A stretch of 64,000 bases of DNA from Elioraea tepidiphila DSM 17972 (GTDB lineage Bacteria; Pseudomonadota; Alphaproteobacteria; Acetobacterales; Acetobacteraceae). The position numbers were made by a program, and so were the translations under genes. Below the pieces are notes generated by a model, which did no database searches, was not told the DNA's origin, and saw nothing but the letters and a program-made list of their open reading frames with translations. Each line of letters opens with the position of its first letter. Position 1 is the stretch's first letter. Positions 20,835-39,575 of this stretch are shown in pieces. Location: contig NZ_KB899924.1 in assembly GCF_000378465.1 (NCBI RefSeq), positions 1 through 64,000 of the forward strand, given 5' to 3'.

Positions 20835-21827
20835 TCACGCCATGATCAGGTTGTCGGGAATCGCGTGGCCGTTCTCGCGGAACCAGCGCGCGGCACCCGG
20901 ATGGAACGGCAGGAATGAGTTCTTGGTGACGTTTTCGGGCACCGTCTCCTTCGCCGTCGAGATCGCCTGCACCAGCGCGGCATTCTGCGTCATCACGGAC
21001 TTGACGATCTCGTAGACGAGGTCCTCGGGCAGGTCCTTGTGGCCGATCGCGAAGTTGTAGACGCCTACGATGTTGATCGGCTCGCGCAGCGAACGGTAGG
21101 TGCCGGCGGCGATCGTGCCCTTCGACAGTTCCGGATAGGCCTTCACGATCGCGTCCATCTGCGCCTCGGTGAAGCCGAAGATGGTCACCTCGTTGGTGGT
21201 CTCGATCTCGCTGAAGGCCGGGATCGGCGCACCGGCGGCGAAGGCGAAGCAGTCGAGCAGCCCGTCGGACACCTGGCCGATCATGTCCGAACCCGACCCG
21301 TAGCCGATCCGGCTCGGGGTCACGCCGAGGGTACGCAGGATGAGCGGATAGTACGTGCCCGGCGTGCCGCCGCGCGGGCCCACGCCCACGCTCTTGCCGT
21401 TGAGCTGGCTGTGGTCGGTGATGCCCGACCGCCGCAGCGCCACGGCATGGAACGGCGTATCGTACATCGGGAACAGCGCGCGGATGTTGCGGAACTTGTT
21501 GCCGCGGGTCCATTCGCCCTGGCCTTCCCAGGCCTGCAGCGCCACACCCATGGTCACCATGCCGAGCTCGACCTGCTTCTGATCGACCAGCACGATGTTC
21601 TGGTTCGGGCCCTGGGTGGTGCGGTAGCTGATGTTGACACCGGTCGCCTGCGCGGCGAGCTGGCCCCAGGCCGGGCCATAGACGGCATAGGTGCCGCCGG
21701 GAGCCGCCGTGCCCATCGTCAGCGCGCGCGGCCAGGCCGGGTTGCGGGGCTGCGCCCAGACGGCCGGGGCGGCGAGGCCGGCGCCGGCAACGGTGGTCGA
21801 GACGAGCAGGGTACGCCTGCGGATCAT
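20835..21827 (-). CDS. TAXI family TRAP transporter solute-binding protein (orphan)
   Basis: A 330-residue periplasmic binding protein of the TAXI type. The signal peptide is MIRRRTLLVSTTVAGAGL with cleavage near AVWAQ (about residue 26). The family core LTMGTAAPGGTYAVYGPAWG follows directly, then NIVLVDQKQVELGMVTMGVA and GKSVGVGPRGGTPGTYYPL. The C-terminal FLPFHPGAARWFRENG is the usual TAXI ending. Known TAXI proteins bind small carboxylates such as glutamate or 2-oxoglutarate. No membrane component is next to it, so it must use a permease encoded elsewhere, perhaps the fused one at 34657, or be a sensor protein. Confidence 0.9.
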   Translation of the reverse strand: MIRRRTLLVSTTVAGAGLAAPAVWAQPRNPAWPRALTMGTAAPGGTYAVYGPAWGQLAAQATGVNISYRTTQGPNQNIVLVDQKQVELGMVTMGVALQAWEGQGEWTRGNKFRNIRALFPMYDTPFHAVALRRSGITDHSQLNGKSVGVGPRGGTPGTYYPLILRTLGVTPSRIGYGSGSDMIGQVSDGLLDCFAFAAGAPIPAFSEIETTNEVTIFGFTEAQMDAIVKAYPELSKGTIAAGTYRSLREPINIVGVYNFAIGHKDLPEDLVYEIVKSVMTQNAALVQAISTAKETVPENVTKNSFLPFHPGAARWFRENGHAIPDNLIMA

Positions 21828-27823: not shown

Positions 27824-28735
27824 GTGAGCGAGCAGACGCGGGTGGGCTATATCGGCGTCGGCCTGATGGGCCACGGCGCGGCCAAGCACATCCTGCTCAA
27901 GGGCCACCCCCTCACCATCCTCGGTCACCGCAACCGCGCGCCGGTGGATGACCTCCTGGCGCGGGGGGCGACGGAGGCGCGCTCGCCGGCCGAACTCGCG
28001 CGGGCCAGCGACGTGGTGTTTCTTTGCCTGCCCTCCTCGGTGGAGGTCGAGGCGACCGTGCTCGGCGAGAACGGCGTGCTTGAGGGTTTCCGGCCCGGCG
28101 CCATCCTGGTCGACAGCACCTCGGCCGATCCGACCTCGACGCGCCGGCTCGGCCGTATCCTCGCCGAGCGCGGCATCGGCATGGTCGACGCCCCGGTCGG
28201 GCGCACCCCGCGCGAGGCCGAACTCGGCAAGCTCTCGACCTTCCTCGGCGGCGACCCGGCACATGTCGCGCGTGTCCGCCCGATCGTCGCATGCTACGCC
28301 GACACGATCATCGAGGCGGGCGAGCTTGGCGCCGGGCACACGCTGAAGCTCGTCAACAACTTCATCTCGATCGGCACCTCGGCCGTGATCGCCGAGGCGG
28401 TCGCGACCGCGAGCAAGCTCGGCGTCGATCTGCGCAAGCTCTACGAGGTCGTGTCCGCCGGCGGGGCGAACAGCGCGATGTTCCAGATGATGATGCCCTG
28501 GGCGCTGGAGGGCGATGACAGCCGGCTGAAGGGGCCGATCCGCATCGCGGCAAAGGACATGCGCACCTATTGCCGCATGGCCGAGGCCGCCCCCGCTCCC
28601 GCCTTCGTCGCCCAGGCGTGCAGCCAGGTCTGGCAGATGGCGCTCGCGCAGGGCCACGGCGAGCGGTTCATGCCGGTGCTGCCCGAGATCGTCGCGCGGC
28701 TCTCGCGCGGGCACGTGCGCGACCTGCCGGACTGA
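27824..28735 (+). CDS. NAD(P)-dependent beta-hydroxyacid dehydrogenase (LtnD/3-HIBDH family)
   Basis: A 303-residue member of the 3-hydroxyisobutyrate dehydrogenase family. The N-terminal Rossmann motif is VGYIGVGLMGHGAAKHILLK. Substrate-binding residues are in FLCLPSSVEVEATVLGE and in DAPVGRTPREAELGKLS (about 124-140). The catalytic lysine lies in GHTLKLVNNFISIG (about 171-184). Close relatives include L-threonate 2-dehydrogenase (LtnD), D-erythronate dehydrogenase-like enzymes and sulfolactaldehyde reductase. The neighbouring DUF1537 kinase favours a four-carbon acid. The GTG start follows a strong GGGAGGA site. First gene of the catabolic operon. Confidence 0.88.
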   Translation: MSEQTRVGYIGVGLMGHGAAKHILLKGHPLTILGHRNRAPVDDLLARGATEARSPAELARASDVVFLCLPSSVEVEATVLGENGVLEGFRPGAILVDSTSADPTSTRRLGRILAERGIGMVDAPVGRTPREAELGKLSTFLGGDPAHVARVRPIVACYADTIIEAGELGAGHTLKLVNNFISIGTSAVIAEAVATASKLGVDLRKLYEVVSAGGANSAMFQMMMPWALEGDDSRLKGPIRIAAKDMRTYCRMAEAAPAPAFVAQACSQVWQMALAQGHGERFMPVLPEIVARLSRGHVRDLPD

Positions 28736-28743
28736 GCGCCCCG

Positions 28744-29562
28744 GTGCCGCGCGCGCACCCCTCTGTCCCCGACGATCCGCCGCTCATTCCGGCGGCGCGG
28801 CAGGCGCGCATTCTCGACCATCTGAGCAGCCGCGGCGTGGTGGCGATCGCCGAGCTCGCCCGCGCGGTCGGCGTCTCGGCCTCGACCGTGCGACGCGACC
28901 TCGACGATCTCGCCGCCAGCGGCCAGCTCCGGCGCACCCATGGCGGTGCGGTCGCCCTCGGGACCGCGCGCACCACCTTCGAGCCCGCGCCCTCGATCGC
29001 GCAGCACGCCCATTCGGTCGCGAAACGGGCAATCGGCGAAGCGGCCGCCGCGCTGGTCGAAGCCGGCCAGAGCGTGGTCTTCGACAGCTCCTCGACCGTG
29101 CTGGAGGCCGCGCGCGGGGTGGTCGCGCGCGGGCTGGCGATCACGGCCGTGACCAATGACCTGCGCATCGCCGCGGTGCTCGCCGAGGCGCCGCGCATCC
29201 GCGTGATCGTGCCGGGCGGCACGCTGCGGCCGGGTTCCCACACGCTCATCGGCGAGCCGGGGGCGAGCTTCGCGCGCGGTCTCGCGGCCGACCTCGCCTT
29301 CCTCGGCGCGCATGCGATCGCCGAAGGCACGATCAGCGAGACCTCGATCGAGGTGGCGGGGATCAAGCAGGCGATGGCCGCGGGCGCGCGCCGTCTCGCC
29401 GTGCTGGCGGATGCAAGCAAGTTCGGCGCGGTCGCGTTCTGCAAGGTGCTGGCGCTGTCGGCGGGCGACCTGGTCATCACCGATGACGGGATCGACCACG
29501 CGGCGAGGACCAGCCTCAGCGCGCGCGGGGTCGTGCTGCAGACCGTGGCGGTGGCAGCATGA
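28744..29562 (+). CDS. DeoR family transcriptional regulator
   Basis: A 272-residue DeoR-type regulator. The N-terminal winged helix-turn-helix is ILDHLSSRGVVAIAELARAV followed by GVSASTVRRDLDDLAASGQL (about 20-58). The C-terminal sugar-phosphate-sensing domain contains VVFDSSSTVLEAARG and the late LAVLADASKFG motif. DeoR proteins usually repress their own catabolic operon until a phosphorylated intermediate binds. Here a kinase product such as 4-phosphothreonate is the natural candidate. The GTG start is 8 bases after the dehydrogenase gene. Its end overlaps the kinase start (ATGA). Confidence 0.9.
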   Translation: MPRAHPSVPDDPPLIPAARQARILDHLSSRGVVAIAELARAVGVSASTVRRDLDDLAASGQLRRTHGGAVALGTARTTFEPAPSIAQHAHSVAKRAIGEAAAALVEAGQSVVFDSSSTVLEAARGVVARGLAITAVTNDLRIAAVLAEAPRIRVIVPGGTLRPGSHTLIGEPGASFARGLAADLAFLGAHAIAEGTISETSIEVAGIKQAMAAGARRLAVLADASKFGAVAFCKVLALSAGDLVITDDGIDHAARTSLSARGVVLQTVAVAA

Positions 29563-30620
29563 GCGGGCTTCGCCTGCTCGCCGACGATCTCACCGGCGCG
29601 CTCGACGCGGCCGCGCCGTTCGCCGCAGCGCGCGCAGCGATCGCCGTGCGCTGGCGCACGGAGGACGACGCGGCTGGCGAGCTCGACTGGCCGGACGGCG
29701 ACGCGGCGCTCTCCACCTCGTCGCGCGCGCTGCCCGAGCCGGAGGCGGTTGGCCGCGTGCACCGCCTCGCACCGGGACTGGCGGCTGGTCGGCCGGCCTT
29801 CAAGAAGATCGACAGCCTGCTGCGCGGCAACACCGCCGCCGAGATCGTGGCCGCGCACCGCGCCGGCGGCTTCGCGACCACGCTGGTCGCGCCCGCCTTC
29901 CCCGCCCAGGGCCGTTTGGTGCGCGCCGGCCGGCTCCGTATCGTCGCCGGCGGTGGCGCGCAGGACGGCATCGATCTGACGGCGCTGCTCGCCGCGGCCG
30001 GAGGAGGGCGCGGCATCACCGTCTGCGACACCGCCGATGACGGCGATCTCGCCCACCTCGTCGCCTCATATCGCCACGATCCAGCCGTGCTCTGGGCGGG
30101 CTCCTCGGGCCTCGCGCGCGCCTTCACCGCGGCGGAGCCAACCTCTGCTGTGCCGCAGGCCACGCGCGTCCTGATGGTGACGGGCAGCGCCCATCCGGTT
30201 ACGCGTCGGCAGATCGCCGCCCTCGCGGCGGCGCAACCGGCGCGCGTGGTCGGCGATGATGGCCGGCAAACGGCGAGCGACATCGCGGGCAGCGTTGCGC
30301 AGCGCCTCGCAGCCGGCCCGTCGGCCGTGCTCGACGCGTCGGTCGACAGTTGCCGGATGCGCGCGCTGTTCGCCGCACTCGCCGGGATCCCCCGCCCTGG
30401 GCTCCTGATCGTCGCAGGAGGCGATACGCTGCTCCGCCTGCTCGGCGCGCTCGGCTGCCGCAGCATCGCCGTGCATGGCGAGGTCGCGGCCGGGATGCCG
30501 CTCTCCACGCTCACCGACGGCGCCTGGGCGGGTGTGCCGCTGATCAGCAAGTCCGGCGCCTTCGCGGATGGTGGGCTGATCGCGCGCCTGCTGGCAGCCG
30601 CGGCCGGAGTGCGGCCATGA
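29559..30620 (+). CDS. four-carbon acid sugar kinase (DUF1537)
   Basis: A 353-residue kinase of the DUF1537 family, whose members phosphorylate D-threonate, D-erythronate or 3-oxotetronate at C4. The N-terminal substrate domain opens LRLLADDLTGALDAAAPF and contains RPAFKKIDSLLRGNTAAEI (about 79-97). The C-terminal nucleotide domain shows VTGSAHPVTRRQIAAL and the glycine-rich LIVAGGDTLLRLLGAL. It is somewhat shorter than the usual 400-430 residues, mainly in the middle region. It overlaps deoR by 4 bases and pdxA2 by 4 bases, so the three are translationally coupled. The direct coupling to a PdxA2 homologue favours D-threonate or D-erythronate as the substrate. Confidence 0.88.
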   Translation: MSGLRLLADDLTGALDAAAPFAAARAAIAVRWRTEDDAAGELDWPDGDAALSTSSRALPEPEAVGRVHRLAPGLAAGRPAFKKIDSLLRGNTAAEIVAAHRAGGFATTLVAPAFPAQGRLVRAGRLRIVAGGGAQDGIDLTALLAAAGGGRGITVCDTADDGDLAHLVASYRHDPAVLWAGSSGLARAFTAAEPTSAVPQATRVLMVTGSAHPVTRRQIAALAAAQPARVVGDDGRQTASDIAGSVAQRLAAGPSAVLDASVDSCRMRALFAALAGIPRPGLLIVAGGDTLLRLLGALGCRSIAVHGEVAAGMPLSTLTDGAWAGVPLISKSGAFADGGLIARLLAAAAGVRP

Positions 30621-31642
30621 CCGCGCCGCTGATCGCCGTCACCATGGGCGACCCGGCCGGGATCGGGCCGGAGATCGCGCTGAAGGCCGCGCGCGCGCTC
30701 GCGCCGCGCATCAGCGTGGGCGCAATCCGTCTCGCGATCGTCGGTTCGGTGGCCGAATTGGCGCGCACCGACGCCGCACTCGGCCTCGGCGCGCGGTTGC
30801 GCCCAGGGCTCGCGCCGGCGGTCTGGCCCGAGATCGCGGTGATCGAGACGGCGCCCGCGCGCATGCCGATCGCGTTCGGTGCGGTCTCGGGCGAGGCGGG
30901 GCATCTCGCCTACGAGGCGGTCGCGACCGCGGTGCGCCACGCGCTCGCCGGCGACGTCGCCGCGATCGCCACCGCGCCGCTGAACAAGGAGGCGCTCAAT
31001 CTCGGCGGGCATCGCTACGCCGGCCACACCGACATGCTCGCCGACCTCACGGGCGTGAAGGACAGCTGCATGATGCTGGCGCACGGTGCGCTGCGGGTCA
31101 CGCATGTCACCACCCATGTGGCACTCGCGCGCGTGCCGGCGCTGCTGACGCCCGAGCGGCTCGACCGGACCCTGCGCCTGACCTTCGAGGCGCTCGGGCG
31201 GCTCGGCATCGCTGCGCCGCGCGTCGCGGTCGCGGCCCTCAATCCGCACGCGGGCGAGGGCGGGCTGTTCGGCACCGAGGACGACACGGTCACCGTGCCG
31301 GTGCTGCGCGACTGGCGCGCGCGCGGCTTCAAGGTGCACGGCCCCGTTCCGGGCGACACTGTGTTCGTCAAGGCGGCCGCGGGACAGTTCGATGCCGTCG
31401 TGGCGATGTATCACGACCAGGGCCACATCCCGGTAAAGCTGCTCGGGTTCCGGATCGATCCGGCCTCGGGCGCGATGGCGGAGCTCGGCGGCGTGAACGT
31501 CACGCTCGGCCTGCCGATCATCCGCACCTCGGTCGATCACGGCACCGCGTTCGACATCGCCGGCAGGGGGATCGCCAATCCGTCCAGCATGGTCGAGGCG
31601 ATCGAGTTCGCCGCGCGGCTCGCGCAAGGTGGGGGGGGATGA
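30617..31642 (+). CDS. pdxA2: PdxA2-type 4-phosphothreonate dehydrogenase
   Basis: A 341-residue homologue of 4-hydroxythreonine-4-phosphate dehydrogenase. PdxA2 members next to DUF1537 kinases oxidise 4-phospho-D-threonate or -erythronate with NAD, followed by decarboxylation to dihydroxyacetone phosphate. Motifs: VTMGDPAGIGPEIALKAARA at the N-terminus, the metal-binding His in YAGHTDMLADLTG (about 134-146), AMYHDQGHIPVKLLGF (about 262-277) and DHGTAFDIAGRGIA at the C-terminus. The start overlaps the kinase stop (ATGA) and the stop overlaps the next gene. A role in vitamin B6 synthesis is less likely in this setting. Confidence 0.9.
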   Translation: MTAPLIAVTMGDPAGIGPEIALKAARALAPRISVGAIRLAIVGSVAELARTDAALGLGARLRPGLAPAVWPEIAVIETAPARMPIAFGAVSGEAGHLAYEAVATAVRHALAGDVAAIATAPLNKEALNLGGHRYAGHTDMLADLTGVKDSCMMLAHGALRVTHVTTHVALARVPALLTPERLDRTLRLTFEALGRLGIAAPRVAVAALNPHAGEGGLFGTEDDTVTVPVLRDWRARGFKVHGPVPGDTVFVKAAAGQFDAVVAMYHDQGHIPVKLLGFRIDPASGAMAELGGVNVTLGLPIIRTSVDHGTAFDIAGRGIANPSSMVEAIEFAARLAQGGGG

Positions 31643-32703
31643 TGCGCATCGCCGCCGCCGCGCTGCACGACCTGCTCGTCGGGCTGTTCCGCGCCGGCGG
31701 GTCGGAGGCGGCGGAGGCGGAGGCGGTCGCCGCGCATCTGGTCGAGGCGAATCTGGTCGGTCACGACAGCCACAGCGCGATCCGCGCGCCCAAGTATCTC
31801 GCCTGGGTCGCCGCGGGCGAGTTGCTGCCGAACCGCCATGCCACGATCGCGATCGATGCCGGACCGCTGCTCGTGCTCGATGGCGGCTTCGGCTATGGCC
31901 AGGTGATCGGCGCGGAGGCGATGGCGCGCGCGATCGAACGCGTGCGCGCGCACGGCCTCGCATTGATCGGCATCCGCAACAGCGGCCATCTGGGGCGGAT
32001 CGGCGCCTGGGCCGAGACGCTTGCCGAGGCGGGGCTCGTCTCAGTGCACTTCGTTAACACCTCGGGCTACGGCATCCTGGTCGCGCCGCACGGCGCGACG
32101 GAACGCCGCCTCTCCGCCAACCCGATCGCCGCCGGCGCGCCCGGACCTGACGGGCCGATCGTGCTCGACATCGCCACCTCGGCGACGGCGGAGGGCAAGA
32201 TCCAGGTCGCGCGCAACAAGGGCGAGGCGCTGCCGCCCGGCCTCGTGCTCGACGGCGCAGGCCGGCCGATCACCGATCCGGAGGCGTTCTATCGCGACCC
32301 GCCCGGCGCGCTCCTGCCCTTCGGCGGCCACAGGGGCTCGGGCCTGTCGGTGTTCTGCGAGATCCTCGCCGGCAGCCTGACCGGCGGCGAATCGAGCCAT
32401 GCCGCAAGCCCGACCGCGTGGCGCCTGGTCAACAACATGCTCACGCTTGCGGTCGATCCGGCACGGCTCGGTGACGGCCACGCCTTCGCCGCCGATGTCG
32501 CGCGGCTGACCGACTGGGTGCGGAGTGCGCGTCCCGCCACGCCGGGCCAGCGGCCGCTGCTGCCCGGCGAGATCGAGCGGCGCACGCGCGCCGAGCGCCT
32601 GCGCGACGGCATCCCGCTCGATCCCGCAACGGTACGGCAGCTCGCCGAGGCGGCGGCGGCCCACGGCGTCGCGCTGCCGGGCGAACTCGCGGAGACCGTG
32701 TGA
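31639..32703 (+). CDS. Ldh2-family NAD(P)-dependent dehydrogenase
   Basis: A 354-residue member of the malate/L-lactate/ureidoglycolate dehydrogenase family, which is unrelated to classical LDH. The family His motif is GHDSHSAIRAPKYLAWV (about 41-57). NSGHLGRIGAWAETLAEAGL (about 114-133) gives the catalytic region and GHRGSGLSVFCEILAG (about 230-245) the late glycine-rich motif. Substrates in the family include 2-hydroxyacids such as malate, sulfolactate, 2,3-diketogulonate and ureidoglycolate. It overlaps the pdxA2 stop by 4 bases. A second 2-hydroxyacid dehydrogenase in this operon is not needed by the described DUF1537 pathways. Confidence 0.88.
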   Translation: MMRIAAAALHDLLVGLFRAGGSEAAEAEAVAAHLVEANLVGHDSHSAIRAPKYLAWVAAGELLPNRHATIAIDAGPLLVLDGGFGYGQVIGAEAMARAIERVRAHGLALIGIRNSGHLGRIGAWAETLAEAGLVSVHFVNTSGYGILVAPHGATERRLSANPIAAGAPGPDGPIVLDIATSATAEGKIQVARNKGEALPPGLVLDGAGRPITDPEAFYRDPPGALLPFGGHRGSGLSVFCEILAGSLTGGESSHAASPTAWRLVNNMLTLAVDPARLGDGHAFAADVARLTDWVRSARPATPGQRPLLPGEIERRTRAERLRDGIPLDPATVRQLAEAAAAHGVALPGELAETV

Positions 32704-32704
32704 G

Positions 32705-33502
32705 ATGAGCGCGCCGATCCGCCCCAATCCCGTGCGCGAGACACTGCTCGCCGGTGGCACGGCCTGGGGGGTGATGGCATTCGAGTTCTTCACCCCCGGC
32801 CTGCCCTTCGTGCTCGCCGCCGCGGGCGCTGAGTTCGTGCTGCTCGACATGGAGCACTCGGGCATCGGCATCGAGACGATCAAGCGGCAGATCGCCTTCG
32901 CCAAAGCGGCCGGAATCGTGCCGATGGTGCGTGTGCCCGGGCATGGCTACCACCTCGTCTCGCCCGTGCTCGATGCGGGGGCGCAGGGGATCATGCTGCC
33001 GATGACCGAGACCCGTGCGCAGGCCGAGGCGCTGGTGTCCTGGTGCCGCTATCGGCCCGAGGGGAAGCGCGGTCTCGGCTTCGGCGTCGGCCACGACGAC
33101 TGGCGCGGCGCCGATCCGCGCACGGCGATGCGCGCGGCGAACGAGGCCGTGCTGACGATCGCCCTGATCGAGAGCGCGACCGGTGTGGAGAACGCGCACG
33201 AGATCCTCTCCGTGCCGGGGATCGATCTCGCCTGGCTCGGCCACTACGACCTCTCCGACAGCCTCGGCGTCGCCGGCGACTTCGATCACCCGCGCTACCG
33301 CGCGGCGGAGGCGCAGCTGATCGAGTCGGCGCGCGCAACCGGCACGCCGCTCGGCTGGGTCGCCAGCGATGCGGACGCCGCCCGCCATGCGCGTGCGCGC
33401 GGCTTCCGCTGCCTCTGCATCGGCCACGAGGTCGCGGTGCTGCGCAGCGCGCTCGCCGCGGCCTTCGCCGAGGCGCGAGAGACGGGAGGGCGGGAGCCGT
33501 GA
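32705..33502 (+). CDS. HpcH/HpaI family aldolase
   Basis: A 265-residue class II aldolase that splits 2-keto-3-deoxy or 4-hydroxy-2-oxo acids into pyruvate and an aldehyde, or the reverse. Family motifs: FVLLDMEHSGIGIETIKRQI (about 47-66), GAQGIMLPMTETRAQAEALV (about 94-113), and IALIESATGVENAHEIL (about 155-171), which carries the metal-binding Glu. The nearby Asp ligand is in GHYDLSDSLG. The ATG starts 1 base after the upstream stop. It is last in the tight enzyme block. Aldol cleavage of a keto acid made by the Ldh2-type enzyme is a plausible step. Confidence 0.88.
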   Translation: MSAPIRPNPVRETLLAGGTAWGVMAFEFFTPGLPFVLAAAGAEFVLLDMEHSGIGIETIKRQIAFAKAAGIVPMVRVPGHGYHLVSPVLDAGAQGIMLPMTETRAQAEALVSWCRYRPEGKRGLGFGVGHDDWRGADPRTAMRAANEAVLTIALIESATGVENAHEILSVPGIDLAWLGHYDLSDSLGVAGDFDHPRYRAAEAQLIESARATGTPLGWVASDADAARHARARGFRCLCIGHEVAVLRSALAAAFAEARETGGREP

Positions 33503-33637
33503 CGCCCTGTCCCCGTGCGAGCCAGCCGGCGACAGCGGCGCGCATAACGTCCGGACGGACGACACACAGCGGACGTTGCATCACCTTTCCAACGCCGTAT
33601 GTTGGCGTTCATCATCAACCAAGAACGGGAGGAAACC
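33503..33637 (+). promoter_or_regulatory. region with two inverted repeats before the TRAP genes
   Basis: AACGTCCG (33546-33553) and CGGACGTT (33570-33577) are perfect arms 16 bases apart. AACGCC-GTATGTT-GGCGTT (33591-33609) is a second perfect inverted repeat 28 bases before the transporter start. Either could be an operator or a processing hairpin. Their presence suggests that the importer genes have their own regulation. Confidence 0.45.
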
Positions 33638-34600
33638 ATGCGTAGACGGGACTTCGCCGGACTGGTGGCGCTCGCGCCGACCATGCTGATCGGCACGCGC
33701 CAAGCGCGCGCGCAGACGCGGTTCGTGCGCGTCGCGACGGCCGGCTCGGGCGGCAACTTCTATCGCCTCGGCAGCGGGCTGGCGGCGATCTGGAACGATA
33801 CCGTGCCCGGTGTCCGGGCTTCGATCCAGGCGACCGGCGGTTCGGTGCAGAACGTCGATCTGCTGGCTGAGCGAGAGGTCGAGATTTCGTACCTCGCAGG
33901 GAATGTCGCTGAACTTGCGTTCAAGAACGAAGGCCAGTTCGCGCAGCGCCCGAAGGGCCGCTATGCCGGACTTCGCGCGATCGCGACCCTCTACCCGAAC
34001 CCGCAATGGTTCCTGGCGATGTCCTGGGCGCCCGAGATCCGGTCCGTGCGCGACCTCAGGGGCAAGCGCGTCTCGGTCGGCATGCAGGGCAGCCAGGGCG
34101 AGGCGGTGTGGCGCATGATCATGGGCCATCTGGGCTGGACCTATCGTGACATTCGCGCCGAGTACACCGTGCACCAGGCCGCGATCGACCAGGTGCGCAA
34201 CCGCCAGATCGATGCGGTGATCTGGCCCGACGCGCCCGGATCGGCGAGCGTGCAGCAGATGATCGACACGGGCTTCGCGCGCCTGATCGACATCGACGAG
34301 GACATCATCGCCTTCATGGACAGCGAGGGGCTCGACTACCCCTACACGGTGCCGGCGGAGCACGTGCCGGGCGGCAAACCGTTCCGCACCTTCGCCTCGC
34401 CGGCGCTGCTCGCCACGCATGACCAGGTGCCGGCGGATCTCGTGCATCAGCTCACCAAGGCGATGTTCGACAACAAGGCGCGCCTCGAGCAGGTGCACCC
34501 GCTCGCGAAGTTCATGACACTCGAGGACGCCTTGAGCGGATTGCCGTTCCCGCTGCATCCCGGTGCCGAGCGGTTCTTCAAGGAGATCGGCAGGGCCTGA
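33638..34600 (+). CDS. TAXI family TRAP transporter solute-binding protein
   Basis: A 320-residue periplasmic binding protein. ATG 33638 (after GGGAGGAA) gives MRRRDFAGLVALAPTMLIG, a Tat-like or Sec signal, with cleavage near ARAQ. The mature start FVRVATAGSGGNFYRLGSGL is the TAXI opening. Further motifs are GKRVSVGMQGSQGEAVWRMI and the ending PFPLHPGAERFFKEIGRA. It sits 56 bases before the fused permease, so the pair forms a complete TAXI-TRAP system. Coupling to the four-carbon acid operon suggests that the ligand is a sugar acid, which would be unusual for TAXI proteins. Confidence 0.92.
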   Translation: MRRRDFAGLVALAPTMLIGTRQARAQTRFVRVATAGSGGNFYRLGSGLAAIWNDTVPGVRASIQATGGSVQNVDLLAEREVEISYLAGNVAELAFKNEGQFAQRPKGRYAGLRAIATLYPNPQWFLAMSWAPEIRSVRDLRGKRVSVGMQGSQGEAVWRMIMGHLGWTYRDIRAEYTVHQAAIDQVRNRQIDAVIWPDAPGSASVQQMIDTGFARLIDIDEDIIAFMDSEGLDYPYTVPAEHVPGGKPFRTFASPALLATHDQVPADLVHQLTKAMFDNKARLEQVHPLAKFMTLEDALSGLPFPLHPGAERFFKEIGRA

Positions 34601-34656
34601 GGACGGGCACCCCGCGCCGGACATACGTTCCGGCGTGGGGTGATCGAGGCTGACAC

Positions 34657-36660
34657 GTGGCGAACGACCAAGCACCCCGGGGCACGGCCCGGCCACAGCG
34701 CAGGAGCGCGGAGTGGAGTCGACCCGATCTCGCCGGCGAAGGCGAGATCGACGTCAACGCGATCAGCGCCAAGGCGGAGATCCGCGGCGAGACCCGAAAT
34801 CCCGCTGGGACCTGGGTACCGATCATCCGCGTGGTCGGCATCGCCTCGTCGCTGTTCCACTTCTACACCGCGGGCTATCGGCCGCTGCCCGCGCTGGAGC
34901 AGAGGCCGATCCACCTCGCGGTGATGCTGTTCCTCTGCTTCCTGCTCTATCCCGCGACCTCGTGCGGCAAGGACCGCCAGCCGAGCGCACTGGATGTCGT
35001 GCTCGCGGTGGTCGGCGCCGCGACCTCGGTCTATCTCGCGGTGATCTACGAGGACTTCGTGCTGCGCGGCGGCATGCCGACCCAGACCGACATCATCGTC
35101 GGCACGCTGTTCTGCATCATCGTGGCGGAAGCGGCGCGCCGCACCATGGGAATGTTCCTGCTGGTGCTGGCGGCGATCTTCATCGGCTACCTGTTCGTCG
35201 GACCCTGGCTGCCCGACATCCTCGCCCATGGCGGCTTCGGCTTTCGCCGCGTGATCCGCCACATGTACATGTCCACCGAGGGCGTCTACGGCATCGCGCT
35301 CGGCGTCTCGGCGACCTATGTCTACCTCTTCATCCTTTTCGGCGCGTTCCTGCAACAATCCGGCACGACCAGCTTCTTCACCAACATCGCCTTCGCCGCC
35401 GCCGGACATTCGCCGGGCGGGCCGGCCAAGGTCGGTGTGATCGCCAGCGCGCTGATGGGCACGATCCAGGGTTCGTCGGCGGCGAACGTGGCCTCGACGG
35501 GCGTGTTCACCATTCCGCTGATGATGCGGCTGGGTTTCCGAGGCTACTACGCGGCGGCGGTCGAGGCGGTGGCCTCGTGCGGCGGGCAGTTCCTGCCTCC
35601 GGTGATGGGCGCCTCGGCCTTCATCATGGCCGAGTATCTCCAGATGCCCTACGCGCAGGTTGCGGCAGGGGCCATGCTGCCCGCGATCCTCTATTACGCC
35701 GCCGTCTATCTGCAGGTGCATCTGCGCGCGGTGAAGGTGGGGATGGAGGGGCTGCCGCGGAACCGCCTGCCGAAGGTGAAGCGCGTGCTGCTCCGCCAGG
35801 GCCATCTCGTGATCCCGATCTTCGTGCTGATCGGGATGCTGATCATGGGCTTCACCGCCCTGTTCGCGGCCTTCTTCTCGATCCTGACCGTGATCGCGGT
35901 CAGCGCGTTCAGGCGCGAGACGCGCATGAACCTCGGCAAGATCTTGGCCGCGCTCGAGGCCGGTGCGCGCAACACCGTCTCGACCGCGATCGCCTGCGCG
36001 GGTGTCGGCTTCATCGTCGGCAGTGTCGGGCTTTCCGGGATCGGGCTGCTGTTCACCCAGTCGATCATCGGGCTCGCGCAGGGCGAGCTGCTGCCGGCGA
36101 TCCTGCTCGCGGCAGGGTGCTCGCTGTTCCTCAGCTTCGGTCTGCCGACCACCTCGGTCTACATCATCACCGCGACCCTGGTCGCGCCGAGCCTCGCGCA
36201 GCTGGGCGTGCCGCCGCTCGTCGCCCACCTGTTCTGCTACTACTGGGGTGGGGTGTCGGCGATCACGCCGCCGGTGGCGCTCGCCGCCTATGTCGGCGCC
36301 GGCATCGCGGGCGCGCCTGTGATGAAGACGGGCTTCACGGCGATGCGGCTCGGCATGGCCGCCTATCTCGTGCCGTTCATCTATGTCTACTGGCCCGCGC
36401 TGGTGATGTGGCACGAGGCGCCGCTCCATCGCGTCGTCCTCGCGTTGATCGGGGGTGCGGTGGGTGTGTTCTGCATGGGCGCGATCGGCGAGCGCTACAT
36501 CACGCGCGAGCTGCCCTGGACGCAGATGGCCCTGCTGGCGATCGCGATCGTGGCGGTGATGCATCCCGCGGCGATCGCCAACGTGCTCGCGGTGGCGATC
36601 GCGCTCGGGGTCGGTGCCTGGGAATGGCGCGCGCGGCCATCACCTGTGAAGGCGAGCTGA
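34657..36660 (+). CDS. TRAP transporter fused permease (DctQM type)
   Basis: A 667-residue membrane protein combining the small (4 TM) and large (12 TM) TRAP subunits, the form normally paired with TAXI binding proteins. The N-terminal about 55 residues are soluble. The small-subunit part spans about 60-180 (LAVMLFLCFLLYPATSC, LDVVLAVVGAATSVYLAVI). The large-subunit part has the conserved GHSPGGPAKVGVIASALMGT and SSAANVASTGVFTIPLM (about 250-290), ASCGGQFLPPVMGASAFIMA, LSFGLPTTSVYIITATLVAP and YYWGGVSAITPPVALAAYVG. It uses a Na+ or H+ gradient. It starts with GTG; no close Shine-Dalgarno is obvious. Confidence 0.93.
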   Translation: MANDQAPRGTARPQRRSAEWSRPDLAGEGEIDVNAISAKAEIRGETRNPAGTWVPIIRVVGIASSLFHFYTAGYRPLPALEQRPIHLAVMLFLCFLLYPATSCGKDRQPSALDVVLAVVGAATSVYLAVIYEDFVLRGGMPTQTDIIVGTLFCIIVAEAARRTMGMFLLVLAAIFIGYLFVGPWLPDILAHGGFGFRRVIRHMYMSTEGVYGIALGVSATYVYLFILFGAFLQQSGTTSFFTNIAFAAAGHSPGGPAKVGVIASALMGTIQGSSAANVASTGVFTIPLMMRLGFRGYYAAAVEAVASCGGQFLPPVMGASAFIMAEYLQMPYAQVAAGAMLPAILYYAAVYLQVHLRAVKVGMEGLPRNRLPKVKRVLLRQGHLVIPIFVLIGMLIMGFTALFAAFFSILTVIAVSAFRRETRMNLGKILAALEAGARNTVSTAIACAGVGFIVGSVGLSGIGLLFTQSIIGLAQGELLPAILLAAGCSLFLSFGLPTTSVYIITATLVAPSLAQLGVPPLVAHLFCYYWGGVSAITPPVALAAYVGAGIAGAPVMKTGFTAMRLGMAAYLVPFIYVYWPALVMWHEAPLHRVVLALIGGAVGVFCMGAIGERYITRELPWTQMALLAIAIVAVMHPAAIANVLAVAIALGVGAWEWRARPSPVKAS

Positions 36661-37098: not shown

Positions 37099-39575
37099 TC
37101 ACGGTGCGGCCCAGCGCGGCGGCTGGAGGCGGAAGGTCGCATCGCGCGCAAACGCGGCGTCCTCGCCACGCTCGAGATAGAGAAGGCCGCTGCGGTGGCG
37201 CAGGAAGTGGCCAGGATAGTTCTCGGACTCGAACGAGACCAGCGACAGATCGGCGAGTCCGCGCCTCCGGCGGAACGTCGCATCGGCGCGGAGCGTCGCG
37301 TCGCTGCCGCGCGCCGCCAGAACCACCTCGAAATTGCGGTGGCGCAAGAAGTAGCCGGGAACGTTGACCGCCTCGAAGCTGATCGCCGTTCCCGAGGCGA
37401 GGCCGGGCATCAGGCGGAAGGTGGCGTCCTTCCGATCGAGCTCCGACGCGACGGGGGTTACCTTGGCCCGGAAGTCCTGATGCCGGACAAAACGGCCGGG
37501 TGCCGTCAGCGGTTCAAGCGAACCGCGCTCGACCGCGGGCGCGAGATCGGATGAGGCGAGCACCAGCGCCTCGGCGTCACTCCACATCTCTCCGATCCTT
37601 GTCCGCCGGTGGGTCCAGACATCACCCGCACGCAGCATCACACGCCCGCGCCCCGTGCTGGCCTTGCTCTCGAAGGCGATGCTGGCCGTCGTGCGATGCT
37701 CCGCCGTGACATCCAACCAGTACCAGACCTGATAATCGCCAAATCCGAGCGTTTGCACCGCTGCCAAGCCCAGGTACGCGGTGTCGCCGAAGCGCGCGCC
37801 GGCGCGCCATTGCCCATCCTGCCAGTCGCGCCAGTAGTGCTGGAGCTGGGTCCCTTCGATGACGAAGACTTCGTAGTTGTGCAGGGCGGCAGGTGCGTGG
37901 TTCTGGAACACGGCTGGCGGGAAGCGGACGTTCGTCCCGAAGGTCGCGCCCTTGCGCCATGTGCCCTCATGCGGGCTGCACCAGTAGTGCTGTACCCGGC
38001 CGTTCTCGACGACGAACACCTCATAGTTACCGTTGCAGCGGTTCTGGAACGCCGCTGGCGCCGATCGAACATCGGTGCCGAAGCGACCGCCCTTGCGCCA
38101 CGTTCCGCCCTTCCAGATCCGCGAGTAGTGCTGAACGGCGCCATCCTCCACCACGAACACCTCGTAGTTGAACCTGAAATCCCAATGCCCTAGGGAGTTC
38201 TGGAAGGCTGCCGCGCCAAGGGTGACGTTCCTGCCGATCCGCGCAGCCCGGCGCCACGTGCCGTCGTTCCAGCTTCGCCAGTAATGGGCGAGGGTTCCCT
38301 CCTCGACCACGAACACCTCGTAGTTGAACTCACTCGGCGCGGCCCGGTTCTGGAACGCCGCGGGCGCGGAGCGGACCTGGAAACCGAGGCGGTCACCAAG
38401 CCGCCACGCCTGATCGCGCGCCCCGCGCCAGTAGTGCCGCACCTGATCGTCGACCCAGGCGAACAGCTCGACGTTGAACAGGCTTGCCGGCGCGCGGTTG
38501 AGGAAGACAGCGGGGGCGGAGCCGACGACCCCGACCGCCGCAGGCCCGACGCGACGCCAGGCGCCATCGTGCCAGCGTCGCACATGGTGTGTCACACTGC
38601 CGCCTTGCCCCACCACGAACACCTGATAGTCGTATTCCCCGGCGCCGGCGTCGGACGGCAGCAGGCGCACCCGGCTCTCCGGGTCGACGTCGGTGTTGCC
38701 GGTCTCGCAGTCCGTCAGGCACAGGCTCGACGCGTTCACGACCCGCACGCTGCAGTGGCTGACGTGGTCCAGCCGCCAGAGCGCGGAGCGGTCCGGCGGA
38801 CGATCGGTCACGCCGCGCACCGCGCCCGTCTCGGCCTCGCCGACGAGATGCGCGGCACCGAACGCGGAACGAACCGTAAACCACCCGATCGGATAATCAG
38901 CGAGCAGGAACTCGCGGAGATACTCGTTCGCGCGCCAGACCGTCTCGATGACCGACCGGTCCGCTGCGTTGGCCGCGAGCTTGCCCTGGCTGTAGCGCCA
39001 GAGCGGCAGGCGCGGCTCACCGGAGAACACGGGCGGCCCGAGCAGCATCTGATTGTGGGCAGCGGCGCGTTCGAACAGGCTGCGGTTCTCCTGGAGCACG
39101 CTCGCCCAGTTCGGCTTCTCGGGTCGGTAGAGCTGGCCAACCTGCGCATCCTGCAGAGTCGCTGTCGCGAGCAGCGGAACGCCAAGATTGTAGGCCACAG
39201 CGACCAGGGCCGCGGAGCGCGCATCCGGCCCTTCGATGCGGCGCTCCATCTTCGCCAGACATCGCTCCAGGCCGCTGATGAGATCGTCGAGCAGATCCGG
39301 ATCCTTCAGGCCGATATACCGCGCGTAGGTTCGCGCGAATCCGTCCATATCTGCCGCCAGATCCTGCGCCTGCGCGTCGTAGAAGGCGCGAATGATCTGC
39401 TGTACTGCCTGCTGGATCAGCTCTGCCGTACTCGGGTCTGGAAAAACACCTTCTTCAGCGCGTCATACGCCTTGCTCAGAAACGATGCAGCTTCGAACGC
39501 CAGGCTGATGGCCTTGTATTCCGTCGACTTCTTGACCTCGTCGATCCAGTCGCTGAGCGAGGTTGGCTCGGGCAT
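37099..39575 (-). pseudogene. helical domain + propeller-like repeats + AbfB beta-trefoil protein, frameshifted
   Basis: Two frames make one protein of about 825 residues. The first starts at ATG 39575 (MPEPTSLSDW...LKKVFF) and stops at 39417. After the T5 run at 39442-39446 the other frame continues naturally as PDPSTAELIQQAVQQIIRAF and runs to 37099. A single missing T would restore one frame. The downstream part alone could start at ATG 39348 (749 aa). From that ATG: a helical region, about 1-180; six repeats of 45-50 residues, about 239-535, with consensus NYEVFVVEDG..QHYWR.W..GTWR and SAPAAFQNR; then three beta-trefoil units, about 605-743, with GYFLRHRNF and GHFLRHRSG, typical of AbfB/CBM42 arabinose-binding modules. 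There is no signal peptide. Sugar binding is inferred from the fold family. It may be a genuine mutation, an assembly error or a slippage site. Confidence 0.7.

Follow-up and report, generated by a model that had tools for sequence, protein, structure and literature searches.

The window analysed here is the whole 64,000-nucleotide stretch of Elioraea tepidiphila DSM 17972 (contig NZ_KB899924.1, positions 1 to 64,000). It contains, at positions 27,824–36,660, eight plus-strand genes, a DeoR-family regulator included, which form one operon around a short DUF1537-family kinase and a PdxA-family dehydrogenase. The genes and the evidence for each assignment are as follows.

27824–28735, plus strand: beta-hydroxyacid dehydrogenase, LtnD-like, nearest to acid-semialdehyde reductases of the GarR/YihU type (NCBIfam and PDB scores, orthologues)
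about 28747–29562, plus strand: DeoR-family transcriptional regulator, start codon uncertain (DeoRC and HTH_DeoR above cut-off)
29559–30620, plus strand: short DUF1537 acid-sugar kinase, 353 amino acids (SBD_N and NBD_C above cut-off)
30617–31642, plus strand: PdxA-family dehydrogenase, PdxA2-like paralogue (NCBIfam and PDB scores)
31639–32703, plus strand: Ldh2-family 2-hydroxyacid/2-oxoacid dehydrogenase (PF02615, NF007504)
32705–33502, plus strand: HpcH/HpaI-family metal-dependent aldolase with a GH(Y/F)DL motif (PF03328, motifs)
33599 (alternative start 33638)–34600, plus strand: TAXI-type TRAP solute-binding protein (TIGR02122)
34657–36660, plus strand: fused TRAP permease (TIGR02123)

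From the regulator through the aldolase, neighbouring genes either overlap or are one base apart. The first-pass annotation of this operon had described the kinase as translationally fused to PdxA, but the separate reading frames rule out a fusion. The stop codon of the kinase gene and the start codon of pdxA lie within a 4-base overlap, ATGA (30617–30620), so the two genes are coupled only. That annotation otherwise stood in part. Its gene content agrees with the present analysis, and the Ldh2-type dehydrogenase, HpaI-type aldolase and TAXI importer that it listed are all present with family scores above cut-off; its list omitted the regulator, which separates the first dehydrogenase from the kinase, and its LtnD label was loose. 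It described two enzymes of the L-threonate route as lacking; neither an OtnI isomerase gene nor an OtnC decarboxylase gene was seen among the operon genes. A scan for promoter-like and terminator-like sites was uninformative (0 of each, with 0.6 and 2.2 expected by chance, respectively), and no clear DeoR operator motif was common to the upstream regions of this operon and its counterpart in Elioraea rosea (L006).

The kinase belongs to the DUF1537 family, with 87 bits for SBD_N (cut-off 25) and 49 bits for NBD_C (cut-off 28), and the motifs DDLTGALD, KxDSxLRG, GGxT and SGxF are invariant across eight aligned short kinases. It scores 117 bits on the D-threonate kinase model DtnK (NF047819, cut-off 450) and 39 bits on the 3-oxo-tetronate kinase model OtnK (NF043035, cut-off 350). 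By these scores, the kinase is nearer to D-threonate kinase than to 3-oxo-tetronate kinase, yet it falls far below either cut-off. A structure prediction made from three sequences had a mean predicted local distance difference test (pLDDT) value of 51, with residues 1–168 below 50, and was set aside unused. The adjoining PdxA passes TIGR00557 (351 bits, cut-off 290) and scores 302 bits on the D-threonate 4-phosphate dehydrogenase model (PdxA2, NF002891, cut-off 583); its best PDB matches are labelled “4-hydroxythreonine-4-phosphate dehydrogenase 2” and “D-threonate 4-phosphate dehydrogenase”. The two genes had been called the known pair for D-threonate/D-erythronate breakdown. This holds for the families, and the nearest models are indeed the D-threonate pair, but both proteins lie below the cut-offs of the named enzymes. 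The genome has three PdxA genes, and of the two outside the operon one adjoins, by eye, a SurA-like gene, pdxA next to a SurA gene being the usual vitamin B6 context; given these two further copies, the operon gene is a paralogue. On another contig of the same genome, at C1:249986 (L026:7978–9887), a full-length DUF1537 kinase (open frame of 426 amino acids) is followed by a class II aldolase-like gene, a pair that by eye resembles OtnK/OtnC.

The first dehydrogenase scores 173 bits on tartronate-semialdehyde reductase (GarR, NF008592, cut-off 397), 168 bits on sulfolactaldehyde reductase and 149 bits on L-threonate dehydrogenase (LtnD, NF043037, cut-off 350), all below the respective cut-offs. 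Thus, “LtnD-like” is correct for the broad family, but other reductase models score higher than LtnD. This ranking suits a semialdehyde-reductase role, and the enzyme is proposed as a candidate four-carbon (C4) semialdehyde reductase. Its orthologues are 66–87% identical in the four other genomes aligned; around the next-best LtnD relatives in the family (345–393 bits; nine loci, L099–L107, eight of them inspected, with the LtnD gene labelled in six), no further operon gene was labelled. The second dehydrogenase is a member of PF02615, has 2g8y as its closest PDB entry, and passes the malate/lactate/ureidoglycolate dehydrogenase model NF007504 (358 bits, cut-off 336), which is a broad model. 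A sulfonate route, prompted by a sulfolactaldehyde-reductase-like GRT motif and by a resemblance of Ldh2 to L-sulfolactate dehydrogenase, was rejected, the L-sulfolactate dehydrogenase model giving 188 bits with a cut-off of 500; no literature was found on the reductase’s binding residue, and the genome was not searched for other sulfonate genes.

The aldolase is a member of the PF03328 superfamily (134 bits) and contains the motifs DMEH (DxEH), VRVP, ALIES and GHYDL, which we take to supply the catalytic His, Arg, Glu and Asp positions. Among the named models it scores 123 bits on HpaI, 108 and 104 bits on GarL (cut-off 407 for the latter score) and 104 bits on 2-keto-3-deoxy-L-rhamnonate aldolase, none of which reaches its cut-off (369 to 441). 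GH(Y/F)DL is present in this aldolase and in nine other linked aldolases checked, and six further aldolases have GPADL (three), GTNDL, GTSDL or GASDL at this position. Because GHFDL also occurs in the unlinked aldolase L007 of Falsiroseomonas, the motif is characteristic of a subfamily and not of the operon. Five Falsiroseomonas/Roseomonas aldolases are 61–66% identical in the best segment.

The binding protein (TIGR02122, 224 bits, cut-off 84) and the fused permease (TIGR02123, 668 bits, cut-off 321) together constitute a predicted TAXI-TRAP transporter. At 20835–21827 on the minus strand, the window encodes another TAXI-type binding protein (25% identity to that of the operon); no second match to the permease was found within the window.

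The gene set is conserved. In E. rosea, ltnD–deoR–kinase–pdxA–ldh2–hpaI occur in the same order, followed, by eye, by a polar-amino-acid-type ATP-binding cassette (ABC) importer instead of TAXI-TRAP. In another alphaproteobacterial family (f87), all four genomes have the short kinase. Three of them (L025, L166, L167) carry deoR–kinase–pdxA–ldh2–hpaI, ABC importer genes and ltnD, as read directly in L025 and L167 and from reference matches in L166, and the importer binding protein of L025 is SBP_bac_3 by Pfam; the fourth has kinase–pdxA–hpaI. Shorter sets are kinase–pdxA–ldh2–hpaI in a metagenome-assembled genome (MAG; L014) and kinase–pdxA–hpaI in L024/L168. In LIN-2 (L019) and a palsa MAG (L011), ltnD–(ldh2)–hpaI stands without a kinase nearby; each nevertheless carries the short kinase, close to a PdxA gene, on a separate contig or, in one case, divided between the ends of two contigs. 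The kinase of L131 is at a contig end and its pdxA is probably on another contig, L132. The short kinase was present in all six genomes searched. Identity to the window proteins in the genomes aligned is 48–77% for the aldolases and 53–76% for Ldh2. Since the set of six catalytic and regulatory genes recurs in other genomes, its arrangement is beyond chance, and the aldolase, Ldh2 and LtnD-like genes are supported as conserved partners of kinase–PdxA across two families, not clutter.

Co-occurrence across the family of E. tepidiphila was assessed in 397 genomes; the genome sets behind the kinase and aldolase counts, which have the same size and shared handles, are taken as one sample. The short kinase is found in 77 genomes and an aldolase of the window type (E ≤ 1e-60) in 78. 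Where the aldolase scores at least 410 bits, 11 of 12 genomes have the short kinase, versus 66 of the 385 others (Fisher p = 8e-8, in a test that ignores relatedness, five of these twelve genomes being of one genus). Neighbourhoods were taken for 40 of the 77 short-kinase genomes, mostly the better-scoring ones, and labels for the neighbours came from tblastn with a set of 21 reference proteins, which misses families outside that set.

Among 58 short-kinase loci, pdxA lies within 9 kb in 56. An aldolase-family gene is present in 33, of which 23 are of the dihydrodipicolinate synthase (DHDPS) type and 10 of the HpaI type, one of these distant. An iron-dependent alcohol dehydrogenase (Fe-ADH) or an LtnD-like gene is present in 31, and aldolase and reductase candidate occur together in 26. 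When the five loci reached through the aldolase are removed, the corresponding numbers are 30, 29 and 24 of 53. A relative of one L027 protein, BNR_2 by Pfam and annotated as exo-alpha-sialidase, occurs in 22 of the 58 loci, the sialidase-like label denoting similarity to that protein. Thus, an aldolase-family gene recurs next to this kinase with unrelated aldolases and reductases, and the weight that the first-pass annotation had placed on the extra enzymes is supported. The L027 Fe-ADH scores best on ErcA (233 bits), followed by sulfoacetaldehyde reductase (223) and 4-hydroxybutyrate dehydrogenase (203), all below cut-off. Longer or more distant kinases have an aldolase-family gene in 11 of 22 loci. 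In a Bradyrhizobium-like genus, by eye, an FAD-linked oxidase gene lies beside kinase and PdxA in three of four loci (L093–L095; by Pfam for L095).

The DHDPS-type arrangement also surrounds kinases close to the D-threonate enzyme. L126 and L127 come from two genomes of the same genus. Their kinases pass the D-threonate kinase model (613 and 607 bits, cut-off 450), and the L126 PdxA passes the D-threonate-4-phosphate dehydrogenase model (681 bits, cut-off 583). PDB 4xfm, labelled “uncharacterized protein”, matches the L126 kinase almost exactly (833 bits over 430 residues); we take it, with 4xgj, to be the D-threonate kinase of Zhang et al. Beside the kinase, L126 (5609–15405) and L127 have Fe-ADH, DHDPS-type, sialidase-like and short-chain dehydrogenase/reductase (SDR) genes, with a symporter gene in L126 by eye. 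Identity to the L027 proteins is about 32–34% for Fe-ADH and 27% for the DHDPS-type protein, and neither of these L126 proteins passes an equivalog cut-off. L112 and L115 have a DtnK-like kinase, PdxA, HpaI, Ldh2 and FAD dehydrogenase genes in one neighbourhood, to which a TRAP importer and a fuconate-dehydratase-like gene can be added by eye. L194 (2–9836) combines the short kinase and an HpaI aldolase 60% identical to that of the window with a D-serine-dehydratase-type pyridoxal-phosphate enzyme, an MlrC-like M81 protein, an enolase that passes its cut-off and a D-2-hydroxyacid dehydrogenase. L185 (7113–16999) resembles L194 by eye, and its partial aldolase is 70% identical to that of the window.

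Compared with characterized routes, the operon shares parts with each. The D-threonate route, reportedly described by Zhang et al. in 2016 as DtnK and PdxA2, has the same DUF1537 kinase adjoining a PdxA paralogue, a DeoR-type gene nearby (also in L126) and the nearest NCBIfam models. However, the window kinase is about 70 residues shorter than the 422-position DtnK model and far below its cut-off, and the operon adds the aldolase, Ldh2, the semialdehyde-reductase-like enzyme and TAXI-TRAP. The galactarate/glucarate route (GarL, GarR) likewise pairs an HpaI-type aldolase with a GarR-family semialdehyde reductase; in contrast, no dehydratase was seen in the window operon, kinase–PdxA replaces glycerate kinase, and the GarL and GarR cut-offs are not reached. 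The cassette of L027, L126 and others, with its DHDPS-type, Fe-ADH, sialidase-like, SDR and kinase–PdxA genes, has the same three elements, namely kinase–PdxA, an aldolase-family gene and an aldehyde-reductase candidate, but draws the latter two from unrelated families, and where the window operon has ldh2 it has an SDR and a sialidase-like gene. The L-threonate/D-erythronate route, which consists of LtnD, DenD, OtnI, OtnK, OtnC and a DeoR regulator according to PMC10580937, also has a DUF1537 kinase, an LtnD-family enzyme and the DeoR regulator; it differs in that OtnI and OtnC have no counterparts among the operon genes and the window kinase is not OtnK-like.

Judged from its sequence, the operon is best seen as a conserved acid-sugar operon for putative DUF1537–PdxA catabolism with a built-in cleavage step. 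The first-pass annotation had left two readings side by side, a longer acid cleaved first by the aldolase or two separate substrates. The former fits best, and we give it a probability of roughly 40%. TAXI-TRAP would import an acidic compound longer than four carbons, and the aldolase would split a 2-keto acid into a 2-oxo-acid (pyruvate, possibly hydroxypyruvate) and a C4 acid semialdehyde. The latter would be reduced by the LtnD-like enzyme to a D-threonate-type acid, phosphorylated at C4 by the short kinase, and oxidized and decarboxylated by the PdxA paralogue to dihydroxyacetone phosphate (DHAP) and CO2. Ldh2 might convert a 2-hydroxy acid to the 2-keto acid or reduce the 2-oxo-acid product, and the DeoR protein may repress the operon until an intermediate binds. 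In the other common version, a DHDPS-type lyase and Fe-ADH would stand in place of HpaI and the LtnD-like reductase.

Several observations weigh against this interpretation. The weak point is Ldh2, to which the scheme assigns no unique step. Substrates, step order and regulation are all inferred from gene content, linkage, family membership and motifs. A close ltnD orthologue and a cassette-type Ldh2 (at least 597 bits) are each present in seven of nine cassette genomes and missing from two. Where the aldolase scores at least 385 bits, half of the genomes are without the short kinase (present in 15 of 30), and at the five Falsiroseomonas/Roseomonas aldolase loci no match to other operon proteins was found within 10 kb flanks. 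For the DHDPS-type proteins tested, the top-scoring model is dapA, at less than its cut-off, and no equivalog cut-off is passed. The content of L112 and L115 implies that neighbours may serve parallel sugar-acid routes. Finally, 25 of the 58 short-kinase loci (a few of them at contig ends) have no detected aldolase within 9 kb, indicating that the kinase–PdxA pair also works elsewhere, for example with an aldehyde dehydrogenase (L029, L096).

The loci without a detected aldolase also favour a two-substrate operon. Here, kinase–PdxA would act on a C4 acid such as D-threonate, and the LtnD-like enzyme, Ldh2 and HpaI on another 2-hydroxy or 2-keto acid, with importer and regulator in common. The separate ltnD–(ldh2)–hpaI blocks of LIN-2 and the palsa MAG agree with such a division, although the short kinase is present in both genomes, close to a PdxA gene. 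We consider this rather unlikely. In the window, pdxA, ldh2 and hpaI follow the kinase gene with overlaps or almost no gap, and the aldolase association recurs with unrelated aldolases.

An improbable variant of cleavage has the aldolase yield hydroxypyruvate, which Ldh2 would convert to glycerate while the LtnD-like enzyme and kinase–PdxA handle the other half. Ldh2 of the E. coli YbiC type is active on hydroxypyruvate, an activity that is putative for the window enzyme. In L194, the aldolase gene has a D-2-hydroxyacid dehydrogenase and an enolase as linked partners, which would take glycerate on to phosphoenolpyruvate, and the palsa genome without cassette-type Ldh2 has, by eye, a similar enolase–kinase locus (L130). 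According to PMC7610986, some HpcH/HpaI enzymes accept hydroxypyruvate as nucleophile; however, a natural substrate for such a route is not obvious.

Plain catabolism of D-threonate or D-erythronate with the extra enzymes idle is more improbable still: of all models and structures compared, those of the D-threonate pair come closest to the kinase and PdxA, but the extra genes persist in the same neighbourhoods at the identities given above. Vitamin B6 supply, with the kinase phosphorylating 4-hydroxythreonine for PdxA, as DUF1537 proteins can do according to PMC7954711, is set aside as highly improbable given the two other PdxA genes in the genome, one beside the SurA-like gene, and given that importer and aldolase point to catabolism.

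A bolder form of the cleavage reading, which starts from a heptulosaric acid, is improbable; if true, it would account for the origin of D-threonate, for the lyase-type, reductase and sialidase-like genes next to its kinase in some bacteria, and for the HpaI aldolase and LtnD-like reductase of this operon. The D-threonate route as described reportedly starts at free D-threonate. Kinases that pass the D-threonate kinase cut-off are linked to one of the two aldolase-family classes, and the linkage of DUF1537–PdxA to two such unrelated classes makes the upstream cleavage step directly testable. As a hypothetical substrate, we suggest a seven-carbon heptulosaric acid. Fischer bookkeeping indicates that cutting such an acid between C3 and C4 and reducing the aldehyde gives D-threonate, and that only the D-lyxo and D-xylo forms among eight configurations do so. 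Next to D-threonate genes, a sialidase-like protein and a member of the lyase family to which N-acetylneuraminate lyase belongs could fit a heptulosaric-type substrate; no sialidase-like gene was noticed near the window operon. Among the open-licence papers listed, no pathway was found for the catabolism of the heptulosaric acid Dha or for a PdxA, lyase and sialidase cluster, and the available part of PMC6353982 names Dha only as a pectin component. The conserved linkage may also offer a candidate route for breaking down a sugar acid of plant cell walls.

Two further features of the window lie outside the operon. Just downstream, at 37099–39348 on the minus strand, a gene encodes a 749-amino-acid protein that contains repeats, as judged by eye, and ends in an AbfB (arabinofuranosidase B) domain; a link to plant sugars is a guess. 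At the window edge, positions 2–316 on the minus strand hold an IS4/5-type transposase fragment (DUF4096).

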